Source: Oceaniovalibus guishaninsula JLT2003
Lineage (GTDB): Bacteria > Pseudomonadota > Alphaproteobacteria > Rhodobacterales > Rhodobacteraceae
Length of the DNA stretch: 64,000 nucleotides
Direction of reading: 5' to 3'
Assembly (NCBI RefSeq): GCF_000299575.1
Contig: NZ_AMGO01000006.1
Span: 62,001 to 126,000 of the forward strand
Under the pieces are notes generated by a model that was given only the letters and a program-made list of their open reading frames with translations, was not told where the DNA came from and ran no database searches. Below are positions 17,348 to 31,672 of the stretch, piece after piece (the first letter of the stretch is position 1; each line of letters starts with the position of its first letter). The position numbers and the translations under genes are program-made.

Positions 17348-17431
17348 CGGATCGCGCCGGCGGGCCCGGTGCGATTTGGTCCCATCATCCCCTTGCACTC
17401 CGCGCGCCCGCTGCGTAGAACGCCGACGCGT

Positions 17432-17506
17432 TGGGGTGTAGCCAAGCGGTAAGGCATCGGTTTTTGGTACCGTGTATCGTAGGTTCGAATCCTACCACCC
17501 CAGCCA
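17432..17506 (+). tRNA. tRNA-Gln (anticodon UUG)
   Basis: The cloverleaf is complete: acceptor TGGGGTG (17432-17438) pairs with CACCCCA (17496-17502), the T-arm carries GGTTCGAATCC, the discriminator is G17503 and CCA is encoded at 17504-17506. The anticodon TTG lies at 17464-17466 in the loop TTTTGGT and reads CAA (and CAG by wobble). The first pair of the anticodon stem is a T-T mismatch. The lower-GC segment that starts right after the CCA suggests this gene has served as an integration site. Confidence 0.95.
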
Positions 17507-17643
17507 ACGCTTCCCTACGAAAGAAGATGGCTTCTGTCTCTTGAAGAGTCGTTGTGGGTTAGGTGGAACAGGGGTTCCGCTCATACCACGGATCTTGTCC
17601 GCCGATGAAGCTCACTCTTACTTTTGGCCGTCCAGCCATACTC

Positions 17644-18078
17644 CTATATCAACTCATCCTGCATGCTACGGTGCATACATTCTAGAACACCGACAATAAC
17701 GTTAAGATTACTAAAGTACGCTAGGGTGCCGCCATCTCGGACATAGCGATACCCGCCTTCAGAATGACTATCAGCTAACCGTTCGATTATATCTGATAAA
17801 TCCTTGTTACGCACCGAGTAGCCGCGCCTCTCGGCCTCACCAAAAAGACTTCTCAAATTGTGGCCATATTGCTTTGACCTAAGCTCAGTCTCACTCATCC
17901 CAGCCTTGGACAAGAAGGCTTTGAGGTATAATTCAACACTGAAGCCAAGTAAATTATAGATAGCAAAAAATACGGAATCTCTGGTCCCGTCTGGTCTGAA
18001 CTCATAAGGGCGAAGCAGATCAACAGCTTGTCGATGTCCGTCAGCTGGTTTAAAGAAGTCCTTTGCTGTGCTTGACAT
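17644..18078 (-). CDS. HEPN-like domain hypothetical protein in AT-richer segment
   Basis: A 144-residue protein of unknown function. The helical stretch FAIYNLLGFSVELYLKAFLSK followed by YGHNLRSLFGEAERRG resembles the HEPN-type helical bundle found in many nucleotidyltransferase partners and toxin or defence proteins; a clear RxxxxxH ribonuclease motif is not evident. Start ATG 18078 (MSSTAKDFFKPADGHRQA) is preferred to the upstream TTG at 18096. Codon use and base composition differ sharply from neighbours (many A/T-ending codons), indicating recent acquisition next to tRNA-Gln. No partner toxin, antitoxin or integrase gene is visible nearby. Confidence 0.6.
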   Translation of the reverse strand: MSSTAKDFFKPADGHRQAVDLLRPYEFRPDGTRDSVFFAIYNLLGFSVELYLKAFLSKAGMSETELRSKQYGHNLRSLFGEAERRGYSVRNKDLSDIIERLADSHSEGGYRYVRDGGTLAYFSNLNVIVGVLECMHRSMQDELI

Positions 18079-18479
18079 AATATTGCTCAACCCCAAGTTA
18101 TCTATGTCTCGGAGTTAAGAGTGATGATCTTATTTTCAAGTGGCGGATAAAGATTGCTGGTGATTCTTTCGACTAATGCGTGTATGACAGGCCAATGCCT
18201 GATAAACTGAAATTTAGCAGCATTGCGTCCTACCAGAGCGCCACCGCATCCAATTTAAAGTCTTCACATTGAGATCCGGCACGAGTTGATTGCAGACGGT
18301 GATTCCTCTGACGTTGCCCCGACTGCGATCCGGCCTTCGCGGCGCGAGCCTCGTCGCATGTTCGCCGGCCACGCACCACACCCTGATCGTCGCCCGGCCG
18401 CAGGGCCGCCGGAAGGGCGCCGTCACGCGCCCCGACAGCCGGTCCGCCGCGGCCGCTTGCGGCGACAAGTCTCGGCCCG
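18079..18479. other. non-coding segment between the acquired HEPN-like gene and the catabolic island
   Basis: About 400 bases without a gene I can support. The left part (to about 18280) is AT-richer like the HEPN gene; the right part returns to the high GC of the backbone. No duplicated tRNA-Gln 3' end, integrase or transposase fragment was recognised. Open frames here look like random high-GC frames. Confidence 0.5.
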
Positions 18480-19310
18480 TCAGGTCGTCGGCAGCCCGAG
18501 GATGTCGCGCGCCTGGGCTGGGGTGGCGACGGGGCGATCGTGGCGGGCGGCGGCCTCGGCGGCAAGGCGCACCAGCGCCGCGTTCGACGGCGCCAGCCTG
18601 TGCCGGTCCAGCCGGATATTGTCCTCGAGCCCGGTGCGAAGATGCCCCCCGGCCCCGGCGGCCCAGTCGTTGAGGACCGCCTGCCCCGGCCCGATTCCCG
18701 CCGCGCACCAGGGCGCGTCGCCGAACAGGTGCCGCTTGGCCGACAGCATCGCGTCGAAGGCGTGACGGTCCACCGGCAGGGCGTTCCGCACGCCCATCAC
18801 GAACTGGCAATAGGGCTGTCGCGGAAGGCGTCCGTCCCGGTGCATCGCCGCCGCCTGATAGAGATGGGACAGATCGAAACACTCGATTTCCGGCATCACG
18901 TCATGGGCGGCCATTTCCGCCGCAAGCCAGTCCACCAGATCGGGCGGGTTTTCGTAGACGCGGGTGGGAAAGTTGTTCGACCCGACCGAAAGCGAACACA
19001 TGTCGGGCCGCAGCGGAATCATCCCGCCCCGCGCCCGCCCCGCCCCCGACCGGCCGCCGGTGGAAAGCTGCACGATCATGCCGGGGCAATGCGCGCGGAT
19101 CCCGCGCATCAGCGCATCGAAGCGATCGGGGTCGCTGCTGGGCGTCTCGTCGTCGTTGCGGACATGGCAATGGGCAATGGCCGCGCCCGCCTCGAACGCC
19201 GCCTGCGTGCTCTCGATCTGTTCGGCCACGGTGATCGGCACGGCCGGATTGTCGGCCTTGCGCGGCAGCGACCCGGTGATGGCGACGCAGATGATCGCGG
19301 GGGACGCCAT
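18480..19310 (-). CDS. BKACE-family beta-keto acid cleavage enzyme
   Basis: A 276-residue TIM-barrel enzyme of the Kce/BKACE (DUF849) family, which condenses a beta-keto acid with acetyl-CoA and splits it to acetoacetate plus a CoA thioester. Zinc ligands are visible as His47 and His49 in AIAHCHVRND and Glu in the GLEDNIRLDRH motif near residue 230. Its start overlaps the dioxygenase stop (TGATG; ATG at 19310, with an alternative GTG at 19313). In this hydroxyquinol-type operon the natural substrate would be 3-oxoadipate, giving succinyl-CoA and acetoacetate. That reaction is known for some family members; its assignment here is inference. Confidence 0.85.
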   Translation of the reverse strand: MASPAIICVAITGSLPRKADNPAVPITVAEQIESTQAAFEAGAAIAHCHVRNDDETPSSDPDRFDALMRGIRAHCPGMIVQLSTGGRSGAGRARGGMIPLRPDMCSLSVGSNNFPTRVYENPPDLVDWLAAEMAAHDVMPEIECFDLSHLYQAAAMHRDGRLPRQPYCQFVMGVRNALPVDRHAFDAMLSAKRHLFGDAPWCAAGIGPGQAVLNDWAAGAGGHLRTGLEDNIRLDRHRLAPSNAALVRLAAEAAARHDRPVATPAQARDILGLPTT

Positions 19311-20227
19311 CACGCGGTCCCCGGATCGGCGGCGGTGAGGGCGGCCTGGGACGGCGTGCCGCCCGTCTCTCCGGGGCGGGCCATCACGATATCGAACCGC
19401 GAGCGCCAGACGGTGTCGCCGTCCACCCGCTCATAGGTCGCGATCAGGCTTTCCTTGACGCCGAAGACGGTATCGTCGTCGAGATATTCGTCGCCCTCGA
19501 CGAAGGAATGGCTGACGATGGTGTGATAGCCGTCGGCCTTCACCAGAAGATGCATGTGTCCGGGCCGGTTCGGATGACGCCCCAGCGCGACCAGCATCTT
19601 GCCCACCGGCCCGTCATCGGGGATCGGATAGCTTACGGGTTTGATGCCCCGGAACCGATAGCGTCCGTCCGCCCCGGTGATGAACCGGCCGCGATTGTTC
19701 CATTTTGGCTGGATGTCGGGCTGCTGGACGTCGTAATAGCCGTCGGCATTGTCGGACCAGACGTCAAGCTCGGCCCCTTCGAGGGAGTTGCCCCGCGTAT
19801 CGGTGATCGTGCCCTCGAACAGGCACGATTCGCCCTTGCCGTCCAGGCAGATGTCGTCGCCCATCTGGCGCAGCGGGGCGTCCGCCACGTGGAACGGCCC
19901 GAAGACGGTATTCTCGGTCGCGCCGTGGGGGCGGCGGTTGTTGATCGCATCGACCAGCATCGACAGGCCCAGCGTATCCGACAGAAGGATGAATTCCTGG
20001 CGCTCGGGCGAACAGATCTGGCCGGTGCGGGTCAGGAAGTCGATGCCGAAGGCCCATTCCTCTTCGGTCAACTCGACCTTCTTGGCGAAGGCGTGCAGAT
20101 GTTCGACCAGCTTGGCCATGACCTGCGCCAGGCGCGGGTCGATGCCGTCGCCCATACGCTCGTTCACGGCTTCGACCGACCGGGCCTCCGAAAAGTAGCG
20201 GCGGCCTTCTTTCCTTGTCGCGTTCAT
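19310..20227 (-). CDS. intradiol ring-cleavage dioxygenase, hydroxyquinol 1,2-dioxygenase type
   Basis: A 305-residue non-haem Fe(III) enzyme that cleaves hydroxyquinol (1,2,4-benzenetriol) between two hydroxyl groups to maleylacetate. An N-terminal helical linker (residues about 25-110) is followed by the beta-sandwich with TVFGPFHVADAPLRQMGDDI. Iron ligands are predicted as Tyr in DNADGYYDVQQ, Tyr in the PVSYPIPDDGP loop, and the two histidines of RPGHMHLLV. Catechol and chlorocatechol dioxygenases share the fold; the neighbouring maleylacetate reductase favours hydroxyquinol. The start has GAGAG upstream and no in-frame competitor. It is the first gene of a dioxygenase-BKACE pair. Confidence 0.88.
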   Translation of the reverse strand: MNATRKEGRRYFSEARSVEAVNERMGDGIDPRLAQVMAKLVEHLHAFAKKVELTEEEWAFGIDFLTRTGQICSPERQEFILLSDTLGLSMLVDAINNRRPHGATENTVFGPFHVADAPLRQMGDDICLDGKGESCLFEGTITDTRGNSLEGAELDVWSDNADGYYDVQQPDIQPKWNNRGRFITGADGRYRFRGIKPVSYPIPDDGPVGKMLVALGRHPNRPGHMHLLVKADGYHTIVSHSFVEGDEYLDDDTVFGVKESLIATYERVDGDTVWRSRFDIVMARPGETGGTPSQAALTAADPGTA

Positions 20228-20351
20228 GGCGCTCTCTCGGTTGATGTTGACTGGGCGATGCGTGGGATGTCGTCGGCACGGCGCGGTCCTGCGGCCGATC
20301 CGACAAGGCGGCGGCGGATCGGGAACAGTTGCAGGCCCGTCCGCCCGGCGA

Positions 20352-20492
20352 TCAATCCCCTCCGGAAAAGGCGGCCAGCGCGCCCGATCGCGGGCTTGCA
20401 TATCCCAGACGGATCCGGCCCCCCCGCGCGATGGCTGGGGCGGCCAGACCCGAGGCGGCGGAAGTCTTCATCAGGTGGCGATGTGTCGGCAT
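20352..20492 (-). pseudogene. N-terminal remnant of a branched-chain-amino-acid-type ABC substrate-binding protein
   Basis: A 46-codon frame with a good GGAGAG site reads MPTHRHLMKTSAASGLAAPA, then IARGGRIRLGYASPRSGAL, ending at TGA (20352-20354). This closely resembles the twin-arginine-like leader and first strand (KIRLGYVSPQSGPLA) of periplasmic-binding-family 6 proteins, which are usually about 400 residues long. The twin arginine is RH here, and the remainder is missing. The fragment lies between the maleylacetate reductase and dioxygenase genes, so a binding-protein gene was probably deleted from the operon. Confidence 0.6.
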
Positions 20493-20510
20493 GGCACTCT
20501 CCGGCTCGGG

Positions 20511-21563
20511 TCAGTCTGCGGGCGGATCGCCCGCCCAGGCGCGCGCCAGCAGGGCGCGGATGGCGTCCTGCTCGACAGGGCGGGGGTTCCAGTAGGGATT
20601 CGCGGCGGCGGCGGCGGCGGTGCGGTCGAGATCGGCCTCCTTCATGCCCAGCTCGCGCAGGCTGCGCGGCGCGCCCAGCCGTCCGGCGAAGGACCACAGC
20701 GCATCGGCGGGCCGTCCCCCGCCCAGAAGCTCGGCCAGGGGGCGCAGGCGGTCGGCGGCGGCGTCCTGGTTATAGGCGGTCGCGTGCGGCAGGATCACCG
20801 CATGCGTTTCGGCATGCGGCAGGTTCAGCATGCCGCCGAGCGTGTGGCAAAGCTTGTGGTGCAGCGCCATGCCGACCCGCCCCAGCACCGCCCCGCAGGC
20901 CCAGGCGCCGCGCTGCGTCGCCTCGCGCGCATCGAGGTCGCCCGGCGTCTCGACCACGGCGGGCAGGCCCTGCGCGAAGGCGCGCAGCCCGTCCATCGCC
21001 AGCGCGTCCGTTTCCGCATCGCGGTCGCGGGCATAAAGCGCCTCGACCGCGTGGGCCATCGCGTTGAGCGCGCTGGTCACGGTCATCGCCACGGGCAGCG
21101 TCGCGATCAGTTCGGGGTCGTAAAGGACGGTCTGGGGACGCACGCGCGGATCGGTGAGCGTTGTCTTGGCGCCATCCTCGGTCTGTCCGAGGATCGGCGT
21201 CGCCTCGGACCCCGCATAGGTCGTGGGTATCGCCACCTGCGGCAGGCCCGTGCGCAGCGCGATGGCCTTGCCCAGCCCGACGGTCGATCCGCCGCCGATG
21301 GCCACCAGACAATCGGCCGCCACCTCGCGGGCATGGGTCAGCGCCGCTTCGGTCACATCGACGGGGGTATGCATCGCCGCGCCGGTGAACAGGCCCGCGC
21401 TGGCCGATCCGATGTCGCCCGCCAGATCCATCGCCATTTCGGCCTGATGCGGCGTCGAAAGGATCACGGCGCGGCTGCGGCCCAGCGCCGCGATCTCCTC
21501 GCCCGTTTCACGCCGCATGCCGCGACCGAAGCGCACCTTCTGCTCTGTCACGATCTCGGCCAT
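20511..21563 (-). CDS. maleylacetate reductase
   Basis: A 350-residue iron-type alcohol dehydrogenase homologue that reduces maleylacetate to 3-oxoadipate with NAD(P)H. The nucleotide site is AIGGGSTVGLGKAIAL; IPTTYAGSEATPILGQTEDG and MALHHKLCHTLGGMLNLPHAETHAV are characteristic of maleylacetate reductases rather than of general alcohol dehydrogenases. The start at 21563 has GGAGGG seven bases upstream. It heads the second operon of the catabolic island, with a bipartite LysR-type operator 58-94 bases upstream, then the binding-protein remnant, the dioxygenase and BKACE. Confidence 0.92.
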   Translation of the reverse strand: MAEIVTEQKVRFGRGMRRETGEEIAALGRSRAVILSTPHQAEMAMDLAGDIGSASAGLFTGAAMHTPVDVTEAALTHAREVAADCLVAIGGGSTVGLGKAIALRTGLPQVAIPTTYAGSEATPILGQTEDGAKTTLTDPRVRPQTVLYDPELIATLPVAMTVTSALNAMAHAVEALYARDRDAETDALAMDGLRAFAQGLPAVVETPGDLDAREATQRGAWACGAVLGRVGMALHHKLCHTLGGMLNLPHAETHAVILPHATAYNQDAAADRLRPLAELLGGGRPADALWSFAGRLGAPRSLRELGMKEADLDRTAAAAAANPYWNPRPVEQDAIRALLARAWAGDPPAD

Positions 21564-21620
21564 GCAACCCTCCAGCATCCTGCGGCAATCGCGATGCTAG
21601 TGCGGCTTCCGGGGCATCCT

Positions 21621-21657
21621 GATCGAATTATCGGCACCAGTCATACCGCGGCGTTAT
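21621..21657. promoter_or_regulatory. bipartite LysR-type operator upstream of maleylacetate reductase
   Basis: GATCGAAT (21621-21628), 14 bases, then ATACCGCGGCGTTAT (21643-21657), a T-N11-A element with inverted ATA/TAT ends. The same two half-elements with identical 22-base offset occur at 30021-30057 beside the LysR gene. The order places the palindrome distal and GATCGAAT proximal to the reverse-strand gene, as expected for a LysR activator's recognition and activation sites. Confidence 0.7.
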
Positions 21658-21668
21658 AAGTCGCCGTC

Positions 21669-23492
21669 CTATGCCTCGGCCTTCCCGGCATCGCGCGGCG
21701 GACGGGTTCCGGTCGCCGAATCCGGCCCCGGCATCGCGGCGCATTCGCGGAAAATCCGCGCCGTGCAGGAGGCGCAGATGTCGGGACCCAGGTTCGGGAC
21801 CATCTCGGCGATCGCCTCGCCCTTTCCCAGATGGATGAACCGTCGGTTCAGCGCCCGCATGACCTTCATCCGCGCCAGCTTGACGATGGTGCGGGGCGTC
21901 CGCGTCATCAGATGAAAACTGCCCCCCCGGCCGCGCCTGCGGGCGCTTTCCTCGATCAGCAGATCGCCCCCCGCCAGGTCGATTTCGCCGATCCCCTTGA
22001 GGATCAGCAGCATGTGCTTCTGACCGGAACGGTCCCTCTCGATCCGGCGGAACGCATCGCGCACCATGCCCACCGATCCGAAGAACAGCGGACCGTCCAG
22101 TCGCACGACGACGAGTTGCGGACATTCGGGCAGCCCAAGCTCGACCGCGTCCTTGAACATCCGCGTCGGGCTGTCGGGATCGGGCGCCCCGATGGCCACG
22201 ACCGGGCGCGACGAATTGCGGATGAAGAACAGGAACGACAGGAAGACGCCGACATAAACGGCGAATTCCAGGTCGATGAGCAGGGTGGACAAAAACGTGG
22301 CCGAGGCGATGGCCGTTTCCGTCCGCGACGTCGCGGCGATCCGGCGCAGTTCCCCGAAATCGACCAGACGCCAGGCCACCAGAAGGATGACGCCGCCCAT
22401 CGCCGCGTCGGGCACCCATGCGAACCAGTCCGAGACGAGCTGAAGGATCGCGAATAGGAAGACGGCCGCGAAGACGGCCGCAAGCGGGCTCTTCGCGCCG
22501 GCCTCGAAGTTCACCCCGGACCGCGTGAAGGATGCCGATGCCGGATAGCATTGGAAAAGGCTGCCGGCGATGTTGGACGCGCCCTGTCCCAGGATCTCGC
22601 GGTTGCCGTCGATAGGCTGGCCGGACCGCATCCCGATGGCGCGCGCGACGGACACCGCTTCCAGCAAGCCGACGAGCGCGATGGCGAAGGCGGCGGATCC
22701 GTAGTCCTGCACGAAGGAAAAACCGAACTCGGGCACCTGGAACGACGGCGCGCCGCTTGAGACGGGGCCGATGGTGGGCACGGTCATGCCGAACCGATGG
22801 CCGCCCAGCGCCAGCAGGGTGCCCGCCGCAAGCGCGATCAGATAATTCGGCCAGCCGGGCCGCCACCAGCGGATGCCGCCGCCCACAAGAAGGACGACCG
22901 CCCCTATGGCAAGCGTCTGCGGATCGGCCTGCGCCGCGGCCGCCGGCAGGGCCGCCAGGAAATCGTGCAGGTCGTTGGGACGGGGCAGGTCCACCCCCAG
23001 AAGATAGCGAAGCTGACTGAGCGCGATCAGCAGCGCCGCGCCGGCGATGAAACCCGTCATCACCGAGTGGGACACGAAATCCATCAGCGCCCCCAGCCGC
23101 GCAAGACCGAAGGCCAGCTGGATCGCCCCGACCAGCAGCGCCAGGGCGATGGCCGCGCGGATATACTCGGGATCGGACGGATCGAGGATGCCCGAGAGCG
23201 TTCCGAAGACCAGCGCCGAAATTGCGGTCGTCGGACCCGACACGGCATGCCAGCTCGATCCGACAAGGGCCGCGACCACGGGCGGGATCATCGCCGTGTA
23301 GAACCCGTATTCGGGCGGCAACCCCGCGATCGCGGCGAAGGCGACGCCCTGCGGCAGCACGATGGTGGCCCCGGTCAGTCCGGCCAGCGCGTCGCTGCGC
23401 AGGGTGGCGGGCGTGACCCGTCCCCGCCAGTCCGAAAGCAGGCGGAAGCGTCCGGCGCGTTGCGCGAGGGATGCGCGAACGCCGCCGCTCAT
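21669..23492 (-). CDS. SulP-family anion transporter with C-terminal STAS domain
   Basis: A 607-residue inner-membrane transporter (SLC26/SulP). The membrane domain (residues about 30-430) includes GATIVLPQGVAFAAIAGLPP, YGFYTAMIPP, VSGPTTAISA and CYPASASFTRSGVNFEAGAKS, the family's sulfate-transport signatures. A cytoplasmic STAS domain follows at about 460-560 (VVRLDGPLFFGSVGMVRDAF, GIGEIDLAGGDLL). A Cys-containing tail (DICASCTARIFREC) is unusual. It begins four bases after the sulfatase stop and ends the operon. With a sulfatase next door, movement of sulfate is the obvious role, though direction and substrate (sulfate, bicarbonate, dicarboxylate) are unknown. Confidence 0.88.
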   Translation of the reverse strand: MSGGVRASLAQRAGRFRLLSDWRGRVTPATLRSDALAGLTGATIVLPQGVAFAAIAGLPPEYGFYTAMIPPVVAALVGSSWHAVSGPTTAISALVFGTLSGILDPSDPEYIRAAIALALLVGAIQLAFGLARLGALMDFVSHSVMTGFIAGAALLIALSQLRYLLGVDLPRPNDLHDFLAALPAAAAQADPQTLAIGAVVLLVGGGIRWWRPGWPNYLIALAAGTLLALGGHRFGMTVPTIGPVSSGAPSFQVPEFGFSFVQDYGSAAFAIALVGLLEAVSVARAIGMRSGQPIDGNREILGQGASNIAGSLFQCYPASASFTRSGVNFEAGAKSPLAAVFAAVFLFAILQLVSDWFAWVPDAAMGGVILLVAWRLVDFGELRRIAATSRTETAIASATFLSTLLIDLEFAVYVGVFLSFLFFIRNSSRPVVAIGAPDPDSPTRMFKDAVELGLPECPQLVVVRLDGPLFFGSVGMVRDAFRRIERDRSGQKHMLLILKGIGEIDLAGGDLLIEESARRRGRGGSFHLMTRTPRTIVKLARMKVMRALNRRFIHLGKGEAIAEMVPNLGPDICASCTARIFRECAAMPGPDSATGTRPPRDAGKAEA

Positions 23493-23496
23493 CGGT

Positions 23497-25122
23497 TCAT
23501 CCGCGTTCGCTGAACGGCCGCCCGAAGGTCGCTTCGTATTCGCTTTCGTCCCAGAAGCCGATCAGCACGCCGGGGGGTTCGCCCCCGGTCATCCGCTCGA
23601 TGGCGTCGGGCGGCATGGTGATGCGGTTGTGATGCTGCCGCGCCCAGGCGAAGATCGCGGCCTCGAGCCGTTCGCGCACATCGGCGGTTGCCGGATCCGC
23701 CCCCAGATCCGTCAACTCGTCGGGATCGGTTTCCAGATCGAACAGCATCGACCGGAACCCTTCGGCGAAGATCAGCTTCCAGCGCGCGTCGCGGACCATG
23801 ATCAGCCGCGCGTCCTTCTGGTCGTTGCCGATGATCTGCCGCGCCTCGCGCGTCGCGTAATCGTATTCGCTGATCGCATAGCGCCGCCAGCGGGCGGGCG
23901 GGGCGGAATCGTGCAGCAGCGGCGCAAGGTCGCGTCCCTCCAGGATATGGGGCTTGGGCGGCGCGCCTTGAAACGCCAGGAATGTGGGCGCGAGGTCGAT
24001 CATCTCGACCAGTTCGTCGCGCGCCGTGCCGCGCGTCGCATCCGCCTCGGGCCGCGGATCGTAGACGATCAGCGGCACCCGCACCGAAGGGTCGTGGAAC
24101 AGATCCTTCTCGCCCATCCAGTGATCGCCGAGGTAGTCCCCGTGATCGGAGGTGAAGGCGATCATCGTGTTCCCGAACAGGCCTCGCTTTTCCATGAAGT
24201 CGAACAGCACACCCATCTGATCGTCGATCTGCTTGATAAGCCCCATATAGGCCGGGATCACCCGCTCGCGCACCGCGTCGCGCGAAAAGCTGCGGCAGAT
24301 GCGGCTTTCGCGATAGGCCTTGTAAACCGGATGATCGTTCTCCAGCTCGGCCTGCGAACGGACGGGCGGCAACACATGCTCGGGTCTGTACATCGCATGA
24401 TAGGGGGCGGGCACGATATAGGGCCAGTGCGGCTTGATCAGGGACAGGTGGCACAGCCACGGCCGGTCGCCCATCTCCTCCATGAAAGCCATCGCGCGGC
24501 GCGTCATGTAGGGCGTCTCGGAATGCTCCTCGGGGATGTCGGCGGGCAGGTGGGAATATTTCAGCAGCCAGCCGGAGAGCAGCTCGCCGTCGTCGCCGCG
24601 ACCGGAATTGGCGGCCGTGTCCCACGGATCGTCGCGGTCGATGCCGACCGACCGCAGATATTCGTCATAGCGCGGATGGCCGCCATAGGGGCCGGGCGGG
24701 TGCAGGCCGTCGTCGCGCTCCCAGGGCTCGAACCCGCATTCCGACACATGCACCCCGATGGTCGATCCGGGGTCGATGCCCAGCCATTCCATCCCTTCGG
24801 TATCGGCGACCATGTGCGTCTTGCCGACGATGGCCGGCACCACCCCGACCTTGCGCAGGTGGTCGCCCAGCGTCGGCTCGCCCACGCGCAGGGGAAAGCC
24901 GTTCCAGGTGGCGCCGTGGCTGCGGCAGTACCGCCCGGTATAGGCGCTCATCCGCGAGGGTCCGCAAAAGGGCGACTGCACATAGGCGCGGTCGAAGCGC
25001 ACGCCGCGCGCCGCCAGCCGGTCGATGTTCGGCGTGTGCAGATGCGGATGGCCGTAGCAGGACAGATAATCCCATCGAAGCTGGTCGCACATGATCCAAA
25101 GGACGTTGCGGACATCGCCCAT
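23497..25122 (-). CDS. sulfatase/phosphonate monoester hydrolase-like enzyme
   Basis: A 541-residue alkaline-phosphatase-superfamily hydrolase. Metal-binding Asp13 lies in MCDQLRWDYLSCYG; PFCGPSRMSAYTGR holds the C-x-P-S-R signature in which Cys53 would become formylglycine; Lys101/His103 (GKTH), Lys230/His232 (KPHWP) and Asp326/His327 (SDHGDYLGDH) complete the usual active-site set. No signal peptide is present, so it acts in the cytoplasm on an imported ester. It is 11 bases after the TRAP binding-protein gene and four before SulP. An aryl- or alkyl-sulfate substrate is likely; phosphonate monoesters are an alternative. No maturation enzyme (FGE) is seen in this window. Confidence 0.88.
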   Translation of the reverse strand: MGDVRNVLWIMCDQLRWDYLSCYGHPHLHTPNIDRLAARGVRFDRAYVQSPFCGPSRMSAYTGRYCRSHGATWNGFPLRVGEPTLGDHLRKVGVVPAIVGKTHMVADTEGMEWLGIDPGSTIGVHVSECGFEPWERDDGLHPPGPYGGHPRYDEYLRSVGIDRDDPWDTAANSGRGDDGELLSGWLLKYSHLPADIPEEHSETPYMTRRAMAFMEEMGDRPWLCHLSLIKPHWPYIVPAPYHAMYRPEHVLPPVRSQAELENDHPVYKAYRESRICRSFSRDAVRERVIPAYMGLIKQIDDQMGVLFDFMEKRGLFGNTMIAFTSDHGDYLGDHWMGEKDLFHDPSVRVPLIVYDPRPEADATRGTARDELVEMIDLAPTFLAFQGAPPKPHILEGRDLAPLLHDSAPPARWRRYAISEYDYATREARQIIGNDQKDARLIMVRDARWKLIFAEGFRSMLFDLETDPDELTDLGADPATADVRERLEAAIFAWARQHHNRITMPPDAIERMTGGEPPGVLIGFWDESEYEATFGRPFSERG

Positions 25123-25133
25123 CGCCTGTCCCC

Positions 25134-26159
25134 CTATTCGGCCGAAAGTTCGGCGACGGTCCCGGTATAGGTCTCCAGCGCCGCCTCGGCGTCGATCCCC
25201 TTCGCCGCCGCCTCGGCCAGCCACCCGTCCACGAAGGGCCGCGCCAGGCCGTCCAGTTCGGCCTCGAATGCGTCGGAGGCGTCGACGACCTCCATCTCCG
25301 CCTCGATTTCGGCCCAGGCCGCGCCTTCCTCGCGGTTCCACACGTCGCCGGCCAGTTCGGCGAACGCCTCGCCCGACACCGACATGATCGCCGCCTGATC
25401 CTCGGCCGAGATCTCGTTCCATGTCTCTTCGCCCACGAAGAACGAAAAGGAAGGCGTGAAGATCTTGCGCCCGGTGCGCGTGACCGACGTGGCATAGGGA
25501 AGCACGTTGAACGACGCCGCGTCCGAAGCGGGAATGCCGACGAACCCGTCGACCACGCCGCGCTGGACGATCTCGGTCATCTGGACGGCCGGGCCGGACA
25601 CGACGGGCGATCCTTCCTGCTTGAGCATCTCGGCCGTCACGCCGGGCAGCGCCCACATCTTGCGCCCGGTCATCTCGTCCACCGAGGTGATCGGCGTGTC
25701 TGTCATCGAATAGAAATCGGCACCCGGCGCGACGAACAGACCCAGCATGTGGACCCCCTCGATCGGATCGGCATCCGCCAGATGCGCCTCCCAGGTGCGC
25801 CACAGCGCGAATGAATTCGCCCGCGCATCGGCCGAGCCCGAGAAGGGCAGCAGCGACACTGCGCCGCCCGTGGCCTCGTTGGCGATGAAGCCGTTGAACT
25901 GGAACGCGGCGTCGAACACCCCGCCCCGCACCGAGGCAAGCTGTTCGGGCGGCGGCGCCATGCTTTTGGCGGGGATGTTCACCCGCACGCGGCGGTCGGT
26001 GACGCGCTCGACCTCCTCGCCCCAGGCGGCCATCACGTCGCGGCAGTTGAAGTGCTGCGCGGGAAAGAAGCAATTCGCGACGATCCGGGTCGCGGCGTCG
26101 GCGGCCGGGGCCGTCAGCGTCAGTCCGATCGCGGCGCAGGCGAGATAGGGCGTCTTCAT
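25134..26159 (-). CDS. TRAP transporter substrate-binding protein (DctP family)
   Basis: A 341-residue periplasmic protein with signal peptide (MKTPYLACAAIGLTLTAPAA, cleavage near ADA-AT). The mature part follows the TRAP DctP pattern: RRVRVNIPAKSMAPPPEQL, the GGVFDAAFQ loop, MTGRKMWALPG (the arginine that usually binds a carboxylate is in this region), and QRGVVDGFVG. It delivers an organic anion to the DctQM membrane unit encoded upstream. GGAGG-type sites precede the ATG. The ligand is unknown; context suggests an aromatic or sulfated aromatic anion. Confidence 0.88.
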   Translation of the reverse strand: MKTPYLACAAIGLTLTAPAADAATRIVANCFFPAQHFNCRDVMAAWGEEVERVTDRRVRVNIPAKSMAPPPEQLASVRGGVFDAAFQFNGFIANEATGGAVSLLPFSGSADARANSFALWRTWEAHLADADPIEGVHMLGLFVAPGADFYSMTDTPITSVDEMTGRKMWALPGVTAEMLKQEGSPVVSGPAVQMTEIVQRGVVDGFVGIPASDAASFNVLPYATSVTRTGRKIFTPSFSFFVGEETWNEISAEDQAAIMSVSGEAFAELAGDVWNREEGAAWAEIEAEMEVVDASDAFEAELDGLARPFVDGWLAEAAAKGIDAEAALETYTGTVAELSAE

Positions 26160-26180
26160 CCTCGGTCCTCCATTGATGGT

Positions 26181-27476
26181 TCAGTAGATCAGGTCGGGTA
26201 TGGCGGTGACGATCTGAGGGAAGATCAGGATCAGGCACAGCGCCACCAGCATCGCGACGACGAAGGGCAGCACGCCGCGGAACATCTCCATCAGGTCGGC
26301 ATCGGTCAGGATCGACTTGACGACGAAGACGTTCATCCCGACCGGCGGCGTGATCAGCCCCATCTCGATGACCAGCACGATGATGATGCCGAACCAGATC
26401 AGATCGACATCGGCATCCAGCAGCGCCGGCATGAAGACCGGAACCAGCAGCAGCAGGATGCCGATCGCCTCGAACACCATGCCCATCAGGATCGCGATGA
26501 CGGTGATCGCCACGACCAGCCCGAACGGCCCCAGATCCAGCGCGTCGATGGCGTCGAGGATCAGGAAGGGCAGCCCGATGTAATTGGCGTAATCGGCGAA
26601 GATCAGCGCCCCGAAGATGACCAGGAACAGCGCCGCCGTCGTGCTCATCGCTTCGGCCAGGCTGTCGATCCATTCGCCCGGCGTCAGCAGCCGCCCGCGG
26701 GTCATCGCGATGACGGCCGCGCCCACCGCGCCGATGCCCGCGGCTTCGGTGGGCGTGAAGATCTTGCCGTAGATCCCGCCCAGTACCAGCACGAACAGGC
26801 CGATGATCGGCAACACGGCGCGCCCGGCGCGGCGGTCGGGGCCCGGTTCGTCCGCGGTGTCCGAAGGCGCCGCCTCGGGGTCGATCCGCGTCCAGATCGC
26901 GACCGTTCCCATGAACAGAAGGACCAGCAGCAGGCCGGGGATCATGCCCGCAAGGAACAGCCGGCCGATATCCTGCTCGGCCACGATGCCGTAGATGACC
27001 AGCGGGACCGAGGGCGGGATCATGATGCCCAGCGTGCCGCCGGCGGAAATCACCCCGGTGGACAGGCTGTCGCGATAGCCGAACCGGCGCATTGACGGCA
27101 TCGCGACCTTGGTCATGGTCGCCGCCGTCGCCAGCGACGACCCGCAGACCGCCCCGAACCCCGCGCAGGCCACCACCGTCGAATGGGCCAGCCCGCCGCG
27201 CAGATTGCGAAACCGTGCATGCGCCGCCTGATACAACTCGTCCGACACGTTCGAGCGATAGATGAACACGCCCATCAGCACGAAAAGCGGGATCACGCTG
27301 AGGTTGTAGTTCATGGCGTCTTCCAGGATCCGCTGGCCGCTCATCTGCATGGCCGGGCCGAGGCCGCGTTCCAGCGCGAAGCCGAAGAAGCCGACCAGCA
27401 GCGTCGCCACCCCGATCCGCACCCCGATGAAGCACAGCAGCAGAAGGATGACGATGGCCAGCGTCGCGGTCAGCAT
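26181..27476 (-). CDS. TRAP transporter large permease subunit (DctM family)
   Basis: A 431-residue sodium-coupled permease with 11-12 predicted transmembrane helices. Recognisable segments include IPLFVLMGVFIYRSNVSDEL, GAVCGSSLATAATMTKVAMP, GTLGIMIPPSVPLVIYGIV, TPTEAAGIGAVGA and MGLITPPVGMNVFVVKSI, all diagnostic of DctM. Two elements carry the PP-containing re-entrant loops. Its ATG overlaps the dctQ stop (TGATG). It forms the membrane complex with DctQ and receives substrate from the DctP protein encoded 21 bases downstream. Confidence 0.93.
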   Translation of the reverse strand: MLTATLAIVILLLLCFIGVRIGVATLLVGFFGFALERGLGPAMQMSGQRILEDAMNYNLSVIPLFVLMGVFIYRSNVSDELYQAAHARFRNLRGGLAHSTVVACAGFGAVCGSSLATAATMTKVAMPSMRRFGYRDSLSTGVISAGGTLGIMIPPSVPLVIYGIVAEQDIGRLFLAGMIPGLLLVLLFMGTVAIWTRIDPEAAPSDTADEPGPDRRAGRAVLPIIGLFVLVLGGIYGKIFTPTEAAGIGAVGAAVIAMTRGRLLTPGEWIDSLAEAMSTTAALFLVIFGALIFADYANYIGLPFLILDAIDALDLGPFGLVVAITVIAILMGMVFEAIGILLLLVPVFMPALLDADVDLIWFGIIIVLVIEMGLITPPVGMNVFVVKSILTDADLMEMFRGVLPFVVAMLVALCLILIFPQIVTAIPDLIY

Positions 27477-27964
27477 CACGCATCCTCCGGCGGGCCGTCC
27501 GCGGCATCCGGCTCGCGGTAGCCGCTCAGCTCGACGACGAACGCCACAAGCGCCAGAAGCGCGCAGGCGCACAGGATGCCGGCCAGCGGCCAGTCGAGGA
27601 CGATGGTGGTGCGGTCCGTCCGCCACGCCTCGTATGCCAGTTCGCCCAGTTGGGCGGCGATCAGGGCGAAGGTCAGGATCGACAGGGCCCGCACGAACAG
27701 GCGGCGCGGCCGCCGCGCGACCCGGTCGAGCGCCGGCTCCAGCACATCGACTGTGATATGCCCCCGATTGGCCGAGGCCAGCGACATGGCCGCGAAGATC
27801 GAGATCGCCAGAAGGAACTGGATCATCTCGGCCACGCCGAAGACCGGCGCGTTGAAGGCATAGCGCCCGATCACGTCCACGAAGGTCAGCACCATCATCG
27901 CGAAAAGGGCGATGGCGGCCACACCCCGCGACAGCACGACCAGATAGCGCGGCAAGACGTTCAT
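27476..27964 (-). CDS. TRAP transporter small permease subunit (DctQ family)
   Basis: A 162-residue protein with four transmembrane helices (about residues 14-38, 48-66, 90-110 and 130-150). MMVLTFVDVIGRYAFNAPVFGVAEMIQ and LASANRGHITVDVLEPAL contain the conserved R-Y and RGHI(T/S)VD signatures. It stabilises the DctM subunit. It is the second gene of the hydroxylase operon, 88 bases after the monooxygenase stop, and is translationally coupled to dctM. Confidence 0.9.
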   Translation of the reverse strand: MNVLPRYLVVLSRGVAAIALFAMMVLTFVDVIGRYAFNAPVFGVAEMIQFLLAISIFAAMSLASANRGHITVDVLEPALDRVARRPRRLFVRALSILTFALIAAQLGELAYEAWRTDRTTIVLDWPLAGILCACALLALVAFVVELSGYREPDAADGPPEDA

Positions 27965-28052
27965 TCCGTTCCTCCCTACCCGGTCGGCAGACCGGCATGG
28001 CCTGCCAAAAGGCGGCGCTGCGTGTCCGGCGCGGCGCCGCCGGGGCGCCGTT

Positions 28053-29810
28053 CTACAGCGCCAGGATCGTCTTCATCGCGGCGGTCAGATCCCCCTCGGG
28101 GTCGTCGGTCATGGCATGCCGCCGCCAGGCGACGTGGTGGTCGGGGCGCACCAGCAGACAGCCGCTGTCGCTCACCTCCCGCAAGGCCGCCCAATTGCCG
28201 GTGTGATCGACATGGGGCCGGCGCGGCCCGATCACATGCGCGGCGATCTCGATGCCCAGCCGGTCGCCCACGGCGCGGGCGGCGTCGGCCCACCGCTCGC
28301 CCCCGATCGCGGTCAGGATCGTGAACCGCCCGTGCCCGCACAGATCCAGCGTCGAAAGAGGCTCGCCCGTCTCGTGGGTATAGACCCAGGCATGGGGCAG
28401 CCGCGCGCCGGGCCAGGTCGTCGGCTGATAATGCAGCTCGGCGTCCTTCTCGAAGGGCGGCTCCTGCTGGTCCTCGGCCAGGATCGCGCCGGACCGGTAG
28501 CGCTGGTTCATCTCGACGCCATGCGCGTCGAACTCGTATTTCTTGTGGGCGATGGCGGCGCGCAGGGCGGCGCGCTGCGCCTCCGCCTCGGGGGTCGCGT
28601 CGCCGCGCGCCTCAAGGCTCTTCTGCATCTCCTCGGGCTTCACGCCCTCGGTCATGCCCAGCGCGTCGAAGATCGGCTTCGTCTCGCCGATGGACTTGTT
28701 GGCGCGGGTCACGATCTGCTTGGCCACGGGCGCGCGTTCCGCGTCGTAACTGTCCAGCAGCGTCGCGCCGGCCGTGCCGTTCAGCACCATCGCCAGCTTC
28801 CATGCCAGGTTGAACGCGTCCTGGATCGACGTGTTGGACCCCAGCCCGTTCGACGGCGGATGGCGATGAATGGCATCGCCCATGCAGAACACCCGCCCTT
28901 CCGAAGTGCGGGTCGCGTAGTAATTGTTGACGGTCCAGGTGTTGGCGCTGAGCAGCTCGATTTCCAGGTCCGGGTCGCCGACAAGTTGCCGCGCCACGTT
29001 GGTCGCCATCTCCGCGTCCACATCGGGCGCGTCCTGATTGATGTCGTATCCCCAGACGATCAGCCACTCGTTCCAGGGGCGGACCATGCGCACCAGTCCC
29101 ATGCCGATCCCGCCGACATCCGCGCCGGGCTGCATCACCCAGTAAAGGACGGACGGTCGGTGGGCGACGTATTTCGTCAGGTCCGCGCGGAAGTGGATGT
29201 TCATCGAACCGCCCACCGCCATCTTGCCGTCGAAGGGTAGGCCGGCATGCTCGGCCACCAGGGATTTGCCGCCATCCGCGCCGATCAGGTATTTCGACCG
29301 GATGGTTAAATCCTTGCCCGACAGCCGGTCGCGGCAGGTGGTGGTCACGCCGTCCTCGTCCTGCTCGTGCGACAGGTATTCGGTGGACATGCGCGCCTGC
29401 GTGCCGCGCTTGCAGGCGGTCTTGAACAGCAGCGGCTCCATCAGCGTCTGGGGCATGTCGTTCATCATCGTCGGGCTGGACAACAGATGCTCGGCCTTGC
29501 TCTGCGGGCTGTTGCCCCAGGCGGTCATGCGGCCGATCTCCTCGCCGGCGAGGCTTTCGCAAAAGACGTTCTCGCCCATCAGATCCTGATGCGTGGCGAA
29601 CAGATAGGCCTCGTCCTCGACATCCCGGCCCAAGTCGCGCAGCACCTCCATGGTGCGCTGGTTGGTGATATGGGCGCGCGGCGTGTTGGCAAGCCACCGA
29701 TAGCGGTTGATCGCCATGTTCTCGACGCCATAGCTCGACAGAAGCGCCGCCGCCGCCGAGCCTGCCGGCCCGGTGCCGATCACCAGCACGTCGGTCTGAA
29801 TGTCGCTCAT
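28053..29810 (-). CDS. FAD-dependent phenol hydroxylase (TfdB-like aromatic monooxygenase)
   Basis: A 585-residue class A flavoprotein monooxygenase. The FAD-binding GxGxxG lies in DVLVIGTGPAGSAAAALL, followed by PRAHITNQRTMEVLRDLG, the DG motif YLIGADGGKSLV, and CMGDAIHRHPPSNGLGSN then IQDAFNLAWKL. The pattern is closest to TfdB-type 2,4-dichlorophenol 6-monooxygenase and resorcinol or hydroxyphenol hydroxylases; a thioredoxin-like C-terminal domain follows. It should hydroxylate a phenol ortho to its OH, producing a catechol or hydroxyquinol for the dioxygenase. It is first in the operon, with AGGAGA ahead of the ATG and the LysR gene divergent. Confidence 0.88.
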   Translation of the reverse strand: MSDIQTDVLVIGTGPAGSAAAALLSSYGVENMAINRYRWLANTPRAHITNQRTMEVLRDLGRDVEDEAYLFATHQDLMGENVFCESLAGEEIGRMTAWGNSPQSKAEHLLSSPTMMNDMPQTLMEPLLFKTACKRGTQARMSTEYLSHEQDEDGVTTTCRDRLSGKDLTIRSKYLIGADGGKSLVAEHAGLPFDGKMAVGGSMNIHFRADLTKYVAHRPSVLYWVMQPGADVGGIGMGLVRMVRPWNEWLIVWGYDINQDAPDVDAEMATNVARQLVGDPDLEIELLSANTWTVNNYYATRTSEGRVFCMGDAIHRHPPSNGLGSNTSIQDAFNLAWKLAMVLNGTAGATLLDSYDAERAPVAKQIVTRANKSIGETKPIFDALGMTEGVKPEEMQKSLEARGDATPEAEAQRAALRAAIAHKKYEFDAHGVEMNQRYRSGAILAEDQQEPPFEKDAELHYQPTTWPGARLPHAWVYTHETGEPLSTLDLCGHGRFTILTAIGGERWADAARAVGDRLGIEIAAHVIGPRRPHVDHTGNWAALREVSDSGCLLVRPDHHVAWRRHAMTDDPEGDLTAAMKTILAL

Positions 29811-30020
29811 CGCTGTTCTCCTCGGACTGTCAGGTCTTCGTGGCCGCCGGGGCGGCTGCGGAACGGGGAGCGAACGGGCGCCGGCGGAAGGGCGTGCCGC
29901 CGTTCGGCGCAGGTCGGCCCCTGCGAGGCGTCGGCCGCCAAGCTCTGCCCCGTTGCCGTCATCCCGTCCGGCCCTCCGATCTCTCTGCCCTCGTGCCTAG
30001 CATCCCGCCGGTGCGCTGTT

Positions 30021-30057
30021 GATCGAATGCAGGATGGCGAATATACCGCCAGGTTAT
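30021..30057. promoter_or_regulatory. bipartite LysR-type operator between regulator and hydroxylase genes
   Basis: GATCGAAT (30021-30028), 14 bases, then ATACCGCCAGGTTAT (30043-30057). The T-N11-A palindrome overlaps the LysR start codon (30056-30058), so binding would repress the regulator's own gene while the proximal element faces the hydroxylase operon on the reverse strand. The arrangement is duplicated at 21621-21657. The hydroxylase start is about 210 bases away, so a long 5' leader is predicted. Confidence 0.68.
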
Positions 30058-31006
30058 GAAATTGCAGAACGAGCATCTCGAACTTCTCTGGTCGATCACC
30101 GAACATGGCGGGCTGAGCCAGGGCGCGCGCGCCATGAACAAATCCCAGCCCTCGGCGTCGCGGACGATTTCGCTGCTGGAAAAGCGCATCGGCGCGCCGC
30201 TTTTCGAACCCGGCCGCCGTCCCCTTTCCCCGACCGATCTGGGCAAGGCGCTGGCCCGGATAGGCGGCCGCATGCATGCCCTGAACCGCGAGGCGTCCCT
30301 GCTGGTCAAGCGCCATTCCAGCGGCGAGGCGGGGTTGATCCGGCTCGGCGGGACGCCGATCTTCATGGATGGCGTCGTCGCGTCCTTCATCGCCGATTTC
30401 CAGCGCACGCGGACCGATATCCGCATCGACCAGTTCTACGACTATCACGAAGCGCTCGTCACGCAGCTCGACAACGCGACGCTCGACCTCGCCCTTCTGC
30501 CGATGAGACGCGGCGCGGTGCCCGAAACGATGCTGTTCGATCCCGTCCTGCCGGGCCGCAACGTCGTGGCGTGCCGGGTCGGCCACCCGCTTTGCCGCAA
30601 GCCGGACGTGTCGGCCGCGGATCTCGCCTTCTATCCATGGATCGCGCCGCCCGCCGGCAGCCCGCTGGCACGGGATCTGACGCAGATGCTGCGCGGGTTC
30701 GGCAGCGCGAATCTTCGCATCAACTTCTCGGGCGGCACGTTCTCGTCGATCCTCAGCGTCCTTACCGGATCGGACGCGCTGACGCTGCTGCCCCATTCGG
30801 TCGTCTTCACCGCCGGCGGCGGTGGCCTTCTGGCCGACCTTCCGGTCGAGGTTCCCCATCCGACGCGAAAGCTGGGGATCATGCGGCGCAAGGATGTGCC
30901 GCTCGACGGGGCGATCGGGCAACTCCACGATTTCCTGACGGCCCGCTTCGCATCCCTCTCGATGCAAATGAGCAAACGAAACCGCTTGCAGGACGATGCC
31001 GGTTAG
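30056..31006 (+). CDS. LysR-family transcriptional regulator
   Basis: A 316-residue regulator: winged helix-turn-helix at residues 3-62 (LSQGARAMNKSQPSASRTISLLEKRIGAPLFE in two adjacent pieces), then a periplasmic-binding-like effector domain from about residue 90 to 300 (GEAGLIRLGGTPIFM, LDLALLPMRRG, ALTLLPHSVVF). It is divergent from the phenol hydroxylase operon and its start lies within the operator. It most likely senses a pathway intermediate or substrate and activates both operons. An alternative start further on would delete the DNA-binding helix, so 30056 is accepted despite a modest ribosome-binding site (CCAGG). Confidence 0.88.
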   Translation: MKLQNEHLELLWSITEHGGLSQGARAMNKSQPSASRTISLLEKRIGAPLFEPGRRPLSPTDLGKALARIGGRMHALNREASLLVKRHSSGEAGLIRLGGTPIFMDGVVASFIADFQRTRTDIRIDQFYDYHEALVTQLDNATLDLALLPMRRGAVPETMLFDPVLPGRNVVACRVGHPLCRKPDVSAADLAFYPWIAPPAGSPLARDLTQMLRGFGSANLRINFSGGTFSSILSVLTGSDALTLLPHSVVFTAGGGGLLADLPVEVPHPTRKLGIMRRKDVPLDGAIGQLHDFLTARFASLSMQMSKRNRLQDDAG

Positions 31007-31042
31007 GGCCCGACCGGGCGCAGGGTCGCGGGCAGGCGCCCC

Positions 31043-31672
31043 TTACCCGCAGAACCGCTCCTCCAGCCGCATCGCGCGCGTTGCCGGAATGCCGCCGCGC
31101 TTCCAGATCCGCGTGTCCGCATCCGGGTCCGGCACAAGCTGCTCGCGCGCGGTCCGGTCTTCCAGCCGTTCCTCCAGCGTTTCCTTGTCCGGGGTGCGGT
31201 CGGCCAGTTGCGGGCGGGGGGCGATGTCGCGGGCGATCCACTGGCAAAGCCCGATATCGCGCATCTCGGCCTCGGCCATGACGCTGACGCCGCGCAGGTC
31301 GATCAGATGGCCGCGCTTGGTGCCGATACCCGTCACGCCGAAGGTCAGCGCCTCATCGAAGGTCATCGTCTCGGTGCGCGGACCGAACAGGCGGTCCTCG
31401 TCCAGCCAGTCGGTGCCGCTGGCGACATCCAGCACGAAGGTTCCGGGCGGCACCAGCACGCGGAAAAAGCGCCCGCCCTCGATATAGGCGGCCAGCGCCG
31501 GATCGCCGGTCGCGGCATCGCGCAGCGTGATGTAATGATCGCGCCCCGGATCGGTGCGGATCTGCAAGGGCAGCGTCGCGGGCAGGCCGCTGCGGTTCCA
31601 CATCAACCCGTGATCGGGCGCGGCCATCGCCGCCCCGGCCATCAGCAGAACCAGCAGCGCCGCCCGGATCAA
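31043..31672 (-). CDS. conserved secreted hypothetical protein
   Basis: A 209-residue precursor of unknown function. Starting at TTG 31672 gives [17 protein letters not shown], a clear signal peptide, and the start overlaps the stop of the zinc-finger gene (ATTGA); an ATG at 31723 would place it inside that gene with an awkward Arg-rich extension. The body contains [18 protein letters not shown] and a long acidic/basic tail ([21 protein letters not shown]). No domain is recognised. A periplasmic or outer-membrane location is expected. Confidence 0.65.

Follow-up and report, generated by a model that had tools for sequence, protein, structure and literature searches.

The question raised by this locus is why genes for an importer, a sulfatase and an anion transporter lie in the middle of a cluster for aromatic ring cleavage. 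The locus is a block at positions 18480-31006 of a stretch of 64,000 nucleotides (the window, meaning the whole stretch that was analysed) from contig NZ_AMGO01000006.1 of Oceaniovalibus guishaninsula JLT2003. The block is probably a hydroxyquinol cluster from which an ABC importer was deleted and in which that importer was functionally replaced by a cassette for uptake and desulfation.

Gene content and proposed pathway

Model scans of the window found ten genes in the block, nine on the minus strand and one, for a LysR-type regulator, divergent on the plus strand. The initial annotation had named these genes with their order and coordinates, and all of this was borne out, including the minus-strand orientation of every gene except that for LysR. 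The features, with protein lengths in amino acids (aa), are as follows.

18480..19313, minus strand: beta-keto acid cleavage enzyme (BKACE), 277 aa; PF05853, 300.6 bits
19310..20227, minus strand: predicted hydroxyquinol 1,2-dioxygenase, 305 aa; best solved relative 8r2x, 444 bits
20280..20344, minus strand: fossil, tail of the last HAAT-type ABC permease gene, reads RTGLQLFPIRRRLVG; blastn E 2.7e-8 against locus L152
20352..20492, minus strand: fossil, first 46 codons and a stop of a HAAT-type ABC substrate-binding protein gene; tblastn E 5e-14
20511..21578, minus strand: predicted maleylacetate reductase, 355 aa; 3w5s 405.8 bits, 3hl0 400.9 bits
21669..23492, minus strand: SulP-family anion transporter with STAS domain, 607 aa; PF00916 301 bits, PF01740 28 bits
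23497..25122, minus strand: predicted SpAS-type arylsulfatase, 541 aa; CGPSR motif; 4upi 707 bits, 4upl 658 bits
25134..26159, minus strand: TRAP substrate-binding protein DctP, 341 aa; PF03480
26181..27476, minus strand: TRAP large permease DctM, 431 aa; TIGR00786 305 bits against a cut-off of 268; PF06808
27476..27964, minus strand: TRAP small permease DctQ, 162 aa; PF04290 69 bits
28053..29810, minus strand: predicted FAD-dependent phenol ortho-hydroxylase of the HbpA/TfdB type, 585 aa; HbpA 613 bits, TfdB 507 bits
30056..31006, plus strand: LysR-type regulator, divergent; PF00126 and PF03466

In the pathway proposed here, the TRAP importer (DctPQM) would bring in the monosulfate of a dihydroxybenzene such as resorcinol or hydroquinone, the SpAS-type sulfatase would free sulfate from the ester in the cytoplasm, and SulP would export or exchange the released sulfate. 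The flavin hydroxylase would convert the phenol to hydroxyquinol by ortho-hydroxylation, the dioxygenase would convert hydroxyquinol to maleylacetate and the reductase would convert maleylacetate to 3-oxoadipate, from which, together with acetyl-CoA, BKACE may form succinyl-CoA and acetoacetate. We infer these reaction steps from the enzyme families; the substrate, the direction of transport by SulP, the takeover of the lost importer's role by the cassette and the use of 3-oxoadipate by this BKACE in the cell are likewise what we propose.

The hydroxyquinol core and the deletion scar

The aromatic core of the block is ordinary. A scan of genome contigs with the hydroxylase gave at least 582 relatives, and the best 80 loci were examined together with as much as 10 kb of flanking sequence at either end, several of them being short and ended by contig ends. 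A reductase gene was present in 72 of these 80 loci and a dioxygenase gene in 69. The hydroxylase of the window is 74-80% identical to its counterparts in hydroxyquinol clusters, and its LysR regulator is 39-55% identical to the LysR of related clusters. Those hydroxyquinol clusters that have a HAAT-type ABC importer (e.g., in Ruegeria, Paracoccus, Martelella and Mesorhizobium) resemble the window in carrying LysR, hydroxylase, dioxygenase and reductase genes and, in 19 of the 80 loci, a BKACE gene. They differ in that a HAAT permease gene was found in 69 of the 80 loci, whereas the window has only a scar of the ABC genes. Within the genus, the hydroxylase was present in three of 14 genomes, O. 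guishaninsula included, and the other two (loci L210 and L211) carry the usual ABC importer.

The scar lies in the single long gap of the minus-strand run, 283 bases between the reductase and dioxygenase genes. On the coding strand, this gap contains 46 codons that match the N-terminus of a HAAT-type ABC binding protein and are followed by a stop (20492-20352). The best match, in L213, reached 60.5 bits (tblastn E 5e-14, 64% over 53 aligned positions), compared with 33.5 bits for the best of 100 shuffled peptides, and 69 of the 70 matches at E<=1e-3, which include the self-hit and some overlapping loci, fall at an end of such a gene. Positions 20344-20280 read RTGLQLFPIRRRLVG in another frame, almost identical to the C-terminus of the final permease encoded by that ABC operon. 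In L121, L137, L140 and other loci, where this permease gene lies upstream of the hydroxylase gene, the fossil matches its 3' end. Since both ends of an ABC operon lie at the place where relatives carry the operon (the binding-protein gene is directly downstream of the reductase gene in 40 of the 72 loci with a reductase), the scar shows that an older ABC importer was deleted from the cluster.

The simplest account is an ancestral order of LysR, reductase, ABC importer, hydroxylase, dioxygenase and BKACE, from which the importer would have been lost by internal deletion; as the hydroxylase gene now stands at the front of the cluster, at least one rearrangement would also have occurred. The TRAP, sulfatase and SulP genes now lie between the hydroxylase and reductase genes. 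None of the 80 hydroxylase loci contained a match to the DctP, sulfatase or SulP of the window that reached the thresholds, which for the sulfatase included 60% coverage; a sulfatase scan of the 80 loci was made with three queries, and other sulfatase families could escape it. Locus L154, which belongs to genome G126, ends inside a gene for a related sulfatase (65% identical), of which it contains the first third; for this reason the gene falls short of the coverage threshold.

Sulfatase-like genes of another kind were seen in two Paracoccus loci. In L097 (12045-14708) and L094 (about 12.1-14.7 kb), a sulfatase-like gene and a gene of the formylglycine-generating enzyme (FGE) family come soon after the hydroxylase gene of a hydroxyquinol cluster; the pair in L097 was checked with models and that in L094 by tblastn only. 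These sulfatase-like genes are only weakly similar to another sulfatase, and the N-terminus encoded in L097 is signal-peptide-like.

As for the individual enzymes of the core, the flavin hydroxylase had been called TfdB-like; among solved relatives it scores 613 bits against 2-hydroxybiphenyl 3-monooxygenase HbpA and 507 bits against TfdB, which places it nearer to HbpA. HbpA and TfdB enzymes are ortho-hydroxylating phenol monooxygenases. Only a dihydroxybenzene reaches hydroxyquinol by one ortho-hydroxylation, so that the free phenol is likely to be resorcinol or hydroquinone; of the resorcinol- or phenol-type ester suggested in the initial annotation, the resorcinol type would therefore stand and phenol would not, as a single ortho-hydroxylase precedes hydroxyquinol. 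The use of the hydroxylase on a dihydroxybenzene is suggested by the genes downstream. Judged by its scores against solved relatives, the dioxygenase is predicted to be of the hydroxyquinol type (444 bits to 6-chlorohydroxyquinol 1,2-dioxygenase and 263 bits to hydroxyquinol 1,2-dioxygenase, compared with 127 bits to the best catechol 1,2-dioxygenase), and the reductase, with 405.8 bits (3w5s) and 400.9 bits (3hl0) to solved maleylacetate reductases, is predicted to be a maleylacetate reductase.

Sulfatase and importer genes in related genomes

A sulfatase match at E<=1e-100 was found in 137 of 295 genomes of the family, O. guishaninsula included. The 33 loci that came next in the list after the window's own were taken regardless of context and include a further copy from O. 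guishaninsula itself, on contig C68. Importer genes (TAXI-TRAP, DctP-TRAP, ABC or tripartite tricarboxylate transporter (TTT) genes, on either strand and within 9 kb) were found in 28 of these 33 loci, one of which (L078) was counted at only 30% identity; L053, L056 and L087 (28-33% identity) as well as L060 and L061 (none) were not counted. A full-length SulP gene lies directly downstream of the sulfatase gene in five of the 33 loci, with fragments in two more. Homogentisate-pathway genes were found within 9 kb in six loci, in five of them on the same strand; this count was made by eye, with generic glutathione S-transferase (GST) matches dropped (L074 and L086 had GST only) and with L077, on the opposite strand, counted.

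The TRAP importer of the block is complete (DctP, PF03480; DctQ, PF04290; DctM, PF06808), with 4p56 as the closest solved relative of DctP (145 bits), and the SulP protein passes PF00916 but misses TIGR00815 (332.8, with a cut-off of 380.45). Relatives of DctP are 34-56% identical, and many of them adjoin a related sulfatase. With DctP as query, a search of 390 genomes of the order returned matches at E<=1e-50 at 12 places, which belong to 11 genomes, and in seven of these places a sulfatase gene lies beside the TRAP genes (O. guishaninsula, G018, G558, G234, G485, G410 and G321). No sulfatase gene was found at the places in G383, G630 and G516 or at a second place in G485, where the neighbourhood is partial, and the place in G618 was ended by a contig end. 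The row of TRAP and sulfatase genes in G321 continues with hmgA, maiA and fahA, all above cut-off. Moreover, among the places listed, the hydroxylase gene lies within 12 kb of such a sulfatase gene in two of the 21 relatives that have both (G126 and G151), compared with about 0.2 expected (rough P 0.016).

The nearest relative of the sulfatase, 76% identical and also with TRAP genes, is that of G018. In the sulfatase tree, the window and G018 sequences group together (DctP type, starred), apart from the TAXI clade that contains SulP; SulP genes therefore lie beside sulfatases of two separate clades. The TAXI-TRAP-sulfatase cassettes that lie near homogentisate genes (G119, G149, G153, G173, G232 and G106) and the cassette on contig C68 of O. 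guishaninsula are like the window in the order of importer, sulfatase and, where present, SulP, and unlike it in TRAP type, sulfatase clade and ring-cleavage pathway, with none seen on C68. Given these clades and the associations with importers, SulP, homogentisate genes and the hydroxylase, import, desulfation and ring cleavage in sequence is the most economical reading. That TRAP import, a cytoplasmic sulfatase and hydroxyquinol cleavage make up a coherent pathway, as had been claimed at the outset, is thus supported by the scar and by related sulfatases that occur with importers and partly with SulP and ring-cleavage genes.

Alternatively, the sulfatase, SulP and TRAP importer could serve another, perhaps non-aromatic, sulfate ester, having been inserted by chance in a cluster whose core degrades a free phenol that enters in some other way. 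The cassette of G018, the closest to that of the window, lies near gluconolactonase-like and DUF1989 genes, and no aromatic gene was found among the markers or other open reading frames scanned in the 14 kb examined there; in addition, five of the 33 unselected sulfatase loci are without a clear importer, and most are without a ring-cleavage gene among the markers searched. However, the cassette lies inside the cluster, on one strand and with short gaps, the cluster has lost its ABC importer, and related sulfatases are found repeatedly close to homogentisate genes and to the same hydroxylase, which makes a chance insertion rather unlikely.

The finding in G018 is one of several that weigh against the proposed pathway or weaken the figures behind it. 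When related genomes were searched for the same gene set, the core recurred (in 72 and 69 of the 80 hydroxylase loci, as above) and O. guishaninsula alone showed the complete set. The 9 kb around the sulfatase gene gave no homogentisate gene in 27 of the 33 unselected loci, and the chance estimate for the proximity of hydroxylase and sulfatase genes is rough, as it assumes a genome size and copy number and is based on the best places listed. The closest solved relatives of the hydroxylase are named for monophenols. Finally, when the 124-base part of the scar was subjected to simple shuffling, three of 100 sequences gave E<=1e-3, the lowest value being 1.7e-4, compared with the 2.7e-8 observed.

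Several further arrangements were seen around related sulfatase genes. In L200 (G151) and L201 (G126), a different BKACE gene lies directly before the sulfatase gene and TAXI-type TRAP genes lie after it, with a hydroxylase gene of the same kind about 5 kb (L200) and 11 kb (L201) from the sulfatase gene; the BKACE of L200 scores 541 bits against NF053538, 3,5-dioxohexanoate:acetyl-CoA acetone transferase. In O. guishaninsula itself, the second SpAS-type sulfatase gene, on contig C68 (L066, 163500-183400; 62-63%), stands in a row of TAXI-TRAP, sulfatase and SulP genes, near which no ring-cleavage gene was found among the markers searched. A third (C12:115990-117131, L071 8982-10594; 52-57%) appears split over two frames, being either a broken gene or a sequencing error, and the gene beside it is presumably kynureninase-like. 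Cassettes of sulfatase and TRAP genes lie near hmgA-maiA-fahA in L064, L065, L077, L079, L080, L083 and L264, and such rows might serve to break down a sulfated precursor of homogentisate. Near the row in L264, at 9592-9942, a fragment covering 42% of the hydroxyquinol-type dioxygenase query (72% identical) is perhaps what remains of an older hydroxyquinol cluster.

The fate of 3-oxoadipate

The BKACE gene overlaps the dioxygenase gene by 4 bases, and its product passes the NCBIfam model NF053568, 3-oxoadipate:acetyl-CoA acetyltransferase (461.5, with a cut-off of 350). A BKACE at 60% identity or more was found in 19 of the 80 hydroxylase loci, in 18 of them directly downstream of the dioxygenase gene; PcaIJF was found in eight and the two together in none. 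BKACE genes also follow pcaG on plasmids of Phaeobacter, Palleronia and Gemmobacter, and Phaeobacter has a CoA-transferase pair as well. The pca clusters in which BKACE replaces PcaIJF (Palleronia and Gemmobacter) are like the window in having a BKACE, 70-74% identical, beside ring-cleavage genes, but they belong to the protocatechuate branch whereas the window belongs to the hydroxyquinol branch. PMC8963497 describes DUF849 genes in pca clusters without pcaIJF in Methylobacterium and cites Bastard et al. 2014 for a predicted beta-ketoadipate substrate. A route closed by BKACE, which had been put forward as undescribed, therefore has precedents in the 19 loci, in the pca clusters, in NF053568 and in PMC8963497.

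With the upper pathway as proposed, 3-oxoadipate could instead be finished by a CoA-transferase pair and a thiolase of the phenylacetate (paa) operon, leaving BKACE with another beta-keto acid. One thiolase in the genome scores above the PcaF cut-off (713, with a cut-off of 597) and lies in the paa operon, and two CoA-transferase pairs are placed by the models only in the PcaI/ScoA and PcaJ/ScoB subfamilies; the genome could thus finish 3-oxoadipate by other enzymes, a point that counts against a role of BKACE in this step. A complete pcaIJF set elsewhere in the genome was also considered and tentatively set aside, as the thiolase matching the PcaF model turned out to precede paaA, paaB, paaE and paaZ. 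A second point of the same kind is that NF053568, which may be too wide, was passed by all seven BKACEs given to it, two of them from non-aromatic contexts (L268 and L269). These two proteins are 72-73% identical to that of the window, and their genes have a 3-hydroxyacyl-CoA dehydrogenase-like gene or a BCCT transporter gene as neighbours.

The BKACE of the window was aligned with 26 other BKACE rows, to which it is 67-74% identical and most of which come from related hydroxyquinol and pca clusters. Residues that would mark 3-oxoadipate BKACEs were sought in this alignment, and under the rule used no column separates the two rows from non-aromatic contexts from the other 24. The BKACE tree places the window sequence, on a long branch that also speaks for a different substrate, with one non-aromatic and one pca BKACE and without starred support. 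With no separating column and an unsupported placement, the substrate cannot be read from the BKACE sequence. On the other hand, the window BKACE departs at only eight of the 140 positions that are invariant in the other 26, two of which reflect only its longer C-terminus; this, the overlap with the dioxygenase gene, the position directly after that gene in 18 of the 80 loci and the finding of BKACE in none of the eight PcaIJF loci make completion by CoA transfer quite unlikely here, and BKACE is retained as the candidate for the last step.

Identity and maturation of the sulfatase

The hydrolase, whose likely start was read from the sequence at 25122, groups with the arylsulfatases SpAS1 and SpAS2, with predicted cytoplasmic hydrolysis of aryl sulfates. 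Its scores of 707 and 658 bits against these two enzymes (4upi and 4upl) compare with 170-225 bits against phosphonate monoester hydrolases, and no other solved family exceeds 225 bits. In the alignments it has KTH, as do 4upi and 4upl, where 2vqr and 2w8s show YTT, residues that we take to part arylsulfatases from phosphonate monoester hydrolases. It also carries CGPSR, a Cys-type formylglycine motif, and no signal peptide was seen by eye at its N-terminus. Although the family is promiscuous and PehA (phosphoric/sulfuric ester hydrolase) is the closest of the named NCBIfam models, with a score far below cut-off (306, with a cut-off of 900), these scores, the KTH residues and the adjacent SulP gene make it very unlikely that the hydrolase acts on a phosphonate monoester or phosphodiester instead of a sulfate ester.

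The R. pomeroyi gene taken as that for SpAS1 encodes a protein 59.6% identical over 98% of the query and, like the sulfatase gene of the window, has an importer adjacent to it. It differs in that this importer is a TTT and in that gentisate-dioxygenase-like and FAH-family genes, both below the model cut-offs, are found nearby, with no hydroxyquinol genes. The SpAS arylsulfatases of Ruegeria (Silicibacter) pomeroyi (PDB 4UPI and 4UPL) are called AS in PMC5870055.

The main difficulty for a working desulfation cassette concerns FGE. Cys-type sulfatases require formylglycine, yet the assembly, which comprises 68 contigs and is 99.99% complete by its table, yielded no recognisable FGE and no match to the anaerobic sulfatase-maturing enzyme (anSME). 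PF03781 matches a single protein there, at 70.5 bits; this protein has 256 aa and is encoded beside an apparent copper nitrite reductase gene, and we take it to be NirV-like. Among 32 sulfatase carriers, with three further congeners set aside, PF03781 scores at least 220 bits in 13, more weakly in eight (the window genome included) and not at all in 11. Since 11 of the 32 carriers are without a match and the window genome has only the NirV-like protein, these sulfatases may be matured by a different enzyme; otherwise, an FGE gene escaped the scan or falls in a gap of the assembly, or the sulfatases are poorly active.

Implications for the use of aryl sulfates

Conjugates of phenols with sulfate are common in animals, algae and seagrasses. 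The parts of the block and its lower pathway are of known kinds; what is new is a sulfate-ester front end on a hydroxyquinol cluster whose ABC importer is gone, and open-access literature searches, made partly by title and abstract start, turned up no publication that links a sulfatase to hydroxyquinol cleavage. If the proposed pathway operates, the cluster provides a defined set of genes by which a cell would grow on an aryl sulfate and desulfate it internally, and it offers a rare view of how a pathway comes to use a new entry substrate, with the two ends of the former importer persisting as a scar. It also raises the question of how a sulfatase is matured without FGE.

More tentatively, the Rhodobacteraceae might have a general, modular aryl-sulfate diet, an extension that is plausible but somewhat short of probable. 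A single group of cytoplasmic SpAS-type sulfatases with dedicated importers (DctP-TRAP, TAXI-TRAP, TTT or ABC), and sometimes SulP, would then be combined with different ring-cleavage pathways, i.e., hydroxyquinol here, homogentisate elsewhere and a gentisate-like pathway in R. pomeroyi, possibly with a maturase that is not yet known.

Genomic setting of the block

A division of the block into two operons, as initially claimed, was not established; the SulP and reductase genes are 90 bases apart, and the sole long gap is the site of the scar. A promoter scan of 17400-31100 found one consensus site, outside the block, compared with 1.8 expected. The G+C content is 0.677 for the block and 0.64-0.72 across 4-kb steps of the window. 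A genomic island at the tRNA-Gln gene (17432-17506) was considered and rejected, as the 3' end of the tRNA has no second copy in the window and a shift in composition is absent.

The tRNA-Gln site was also checked in eight congeners with a match to the adjoining MscS gene, covering all eight regions and, for G394, one of two places. Beyond MscS and tRNA-Gln in G399, the other flanking genes of the window were not found, save for weak ABC ATPase matches. The MscS gene is kept beside tRNA-Gln in one of the eight, which is G399 (tRNA-Gln at L236 5174-5248), and, judging by this genome, insertions may be tolerated at the site.

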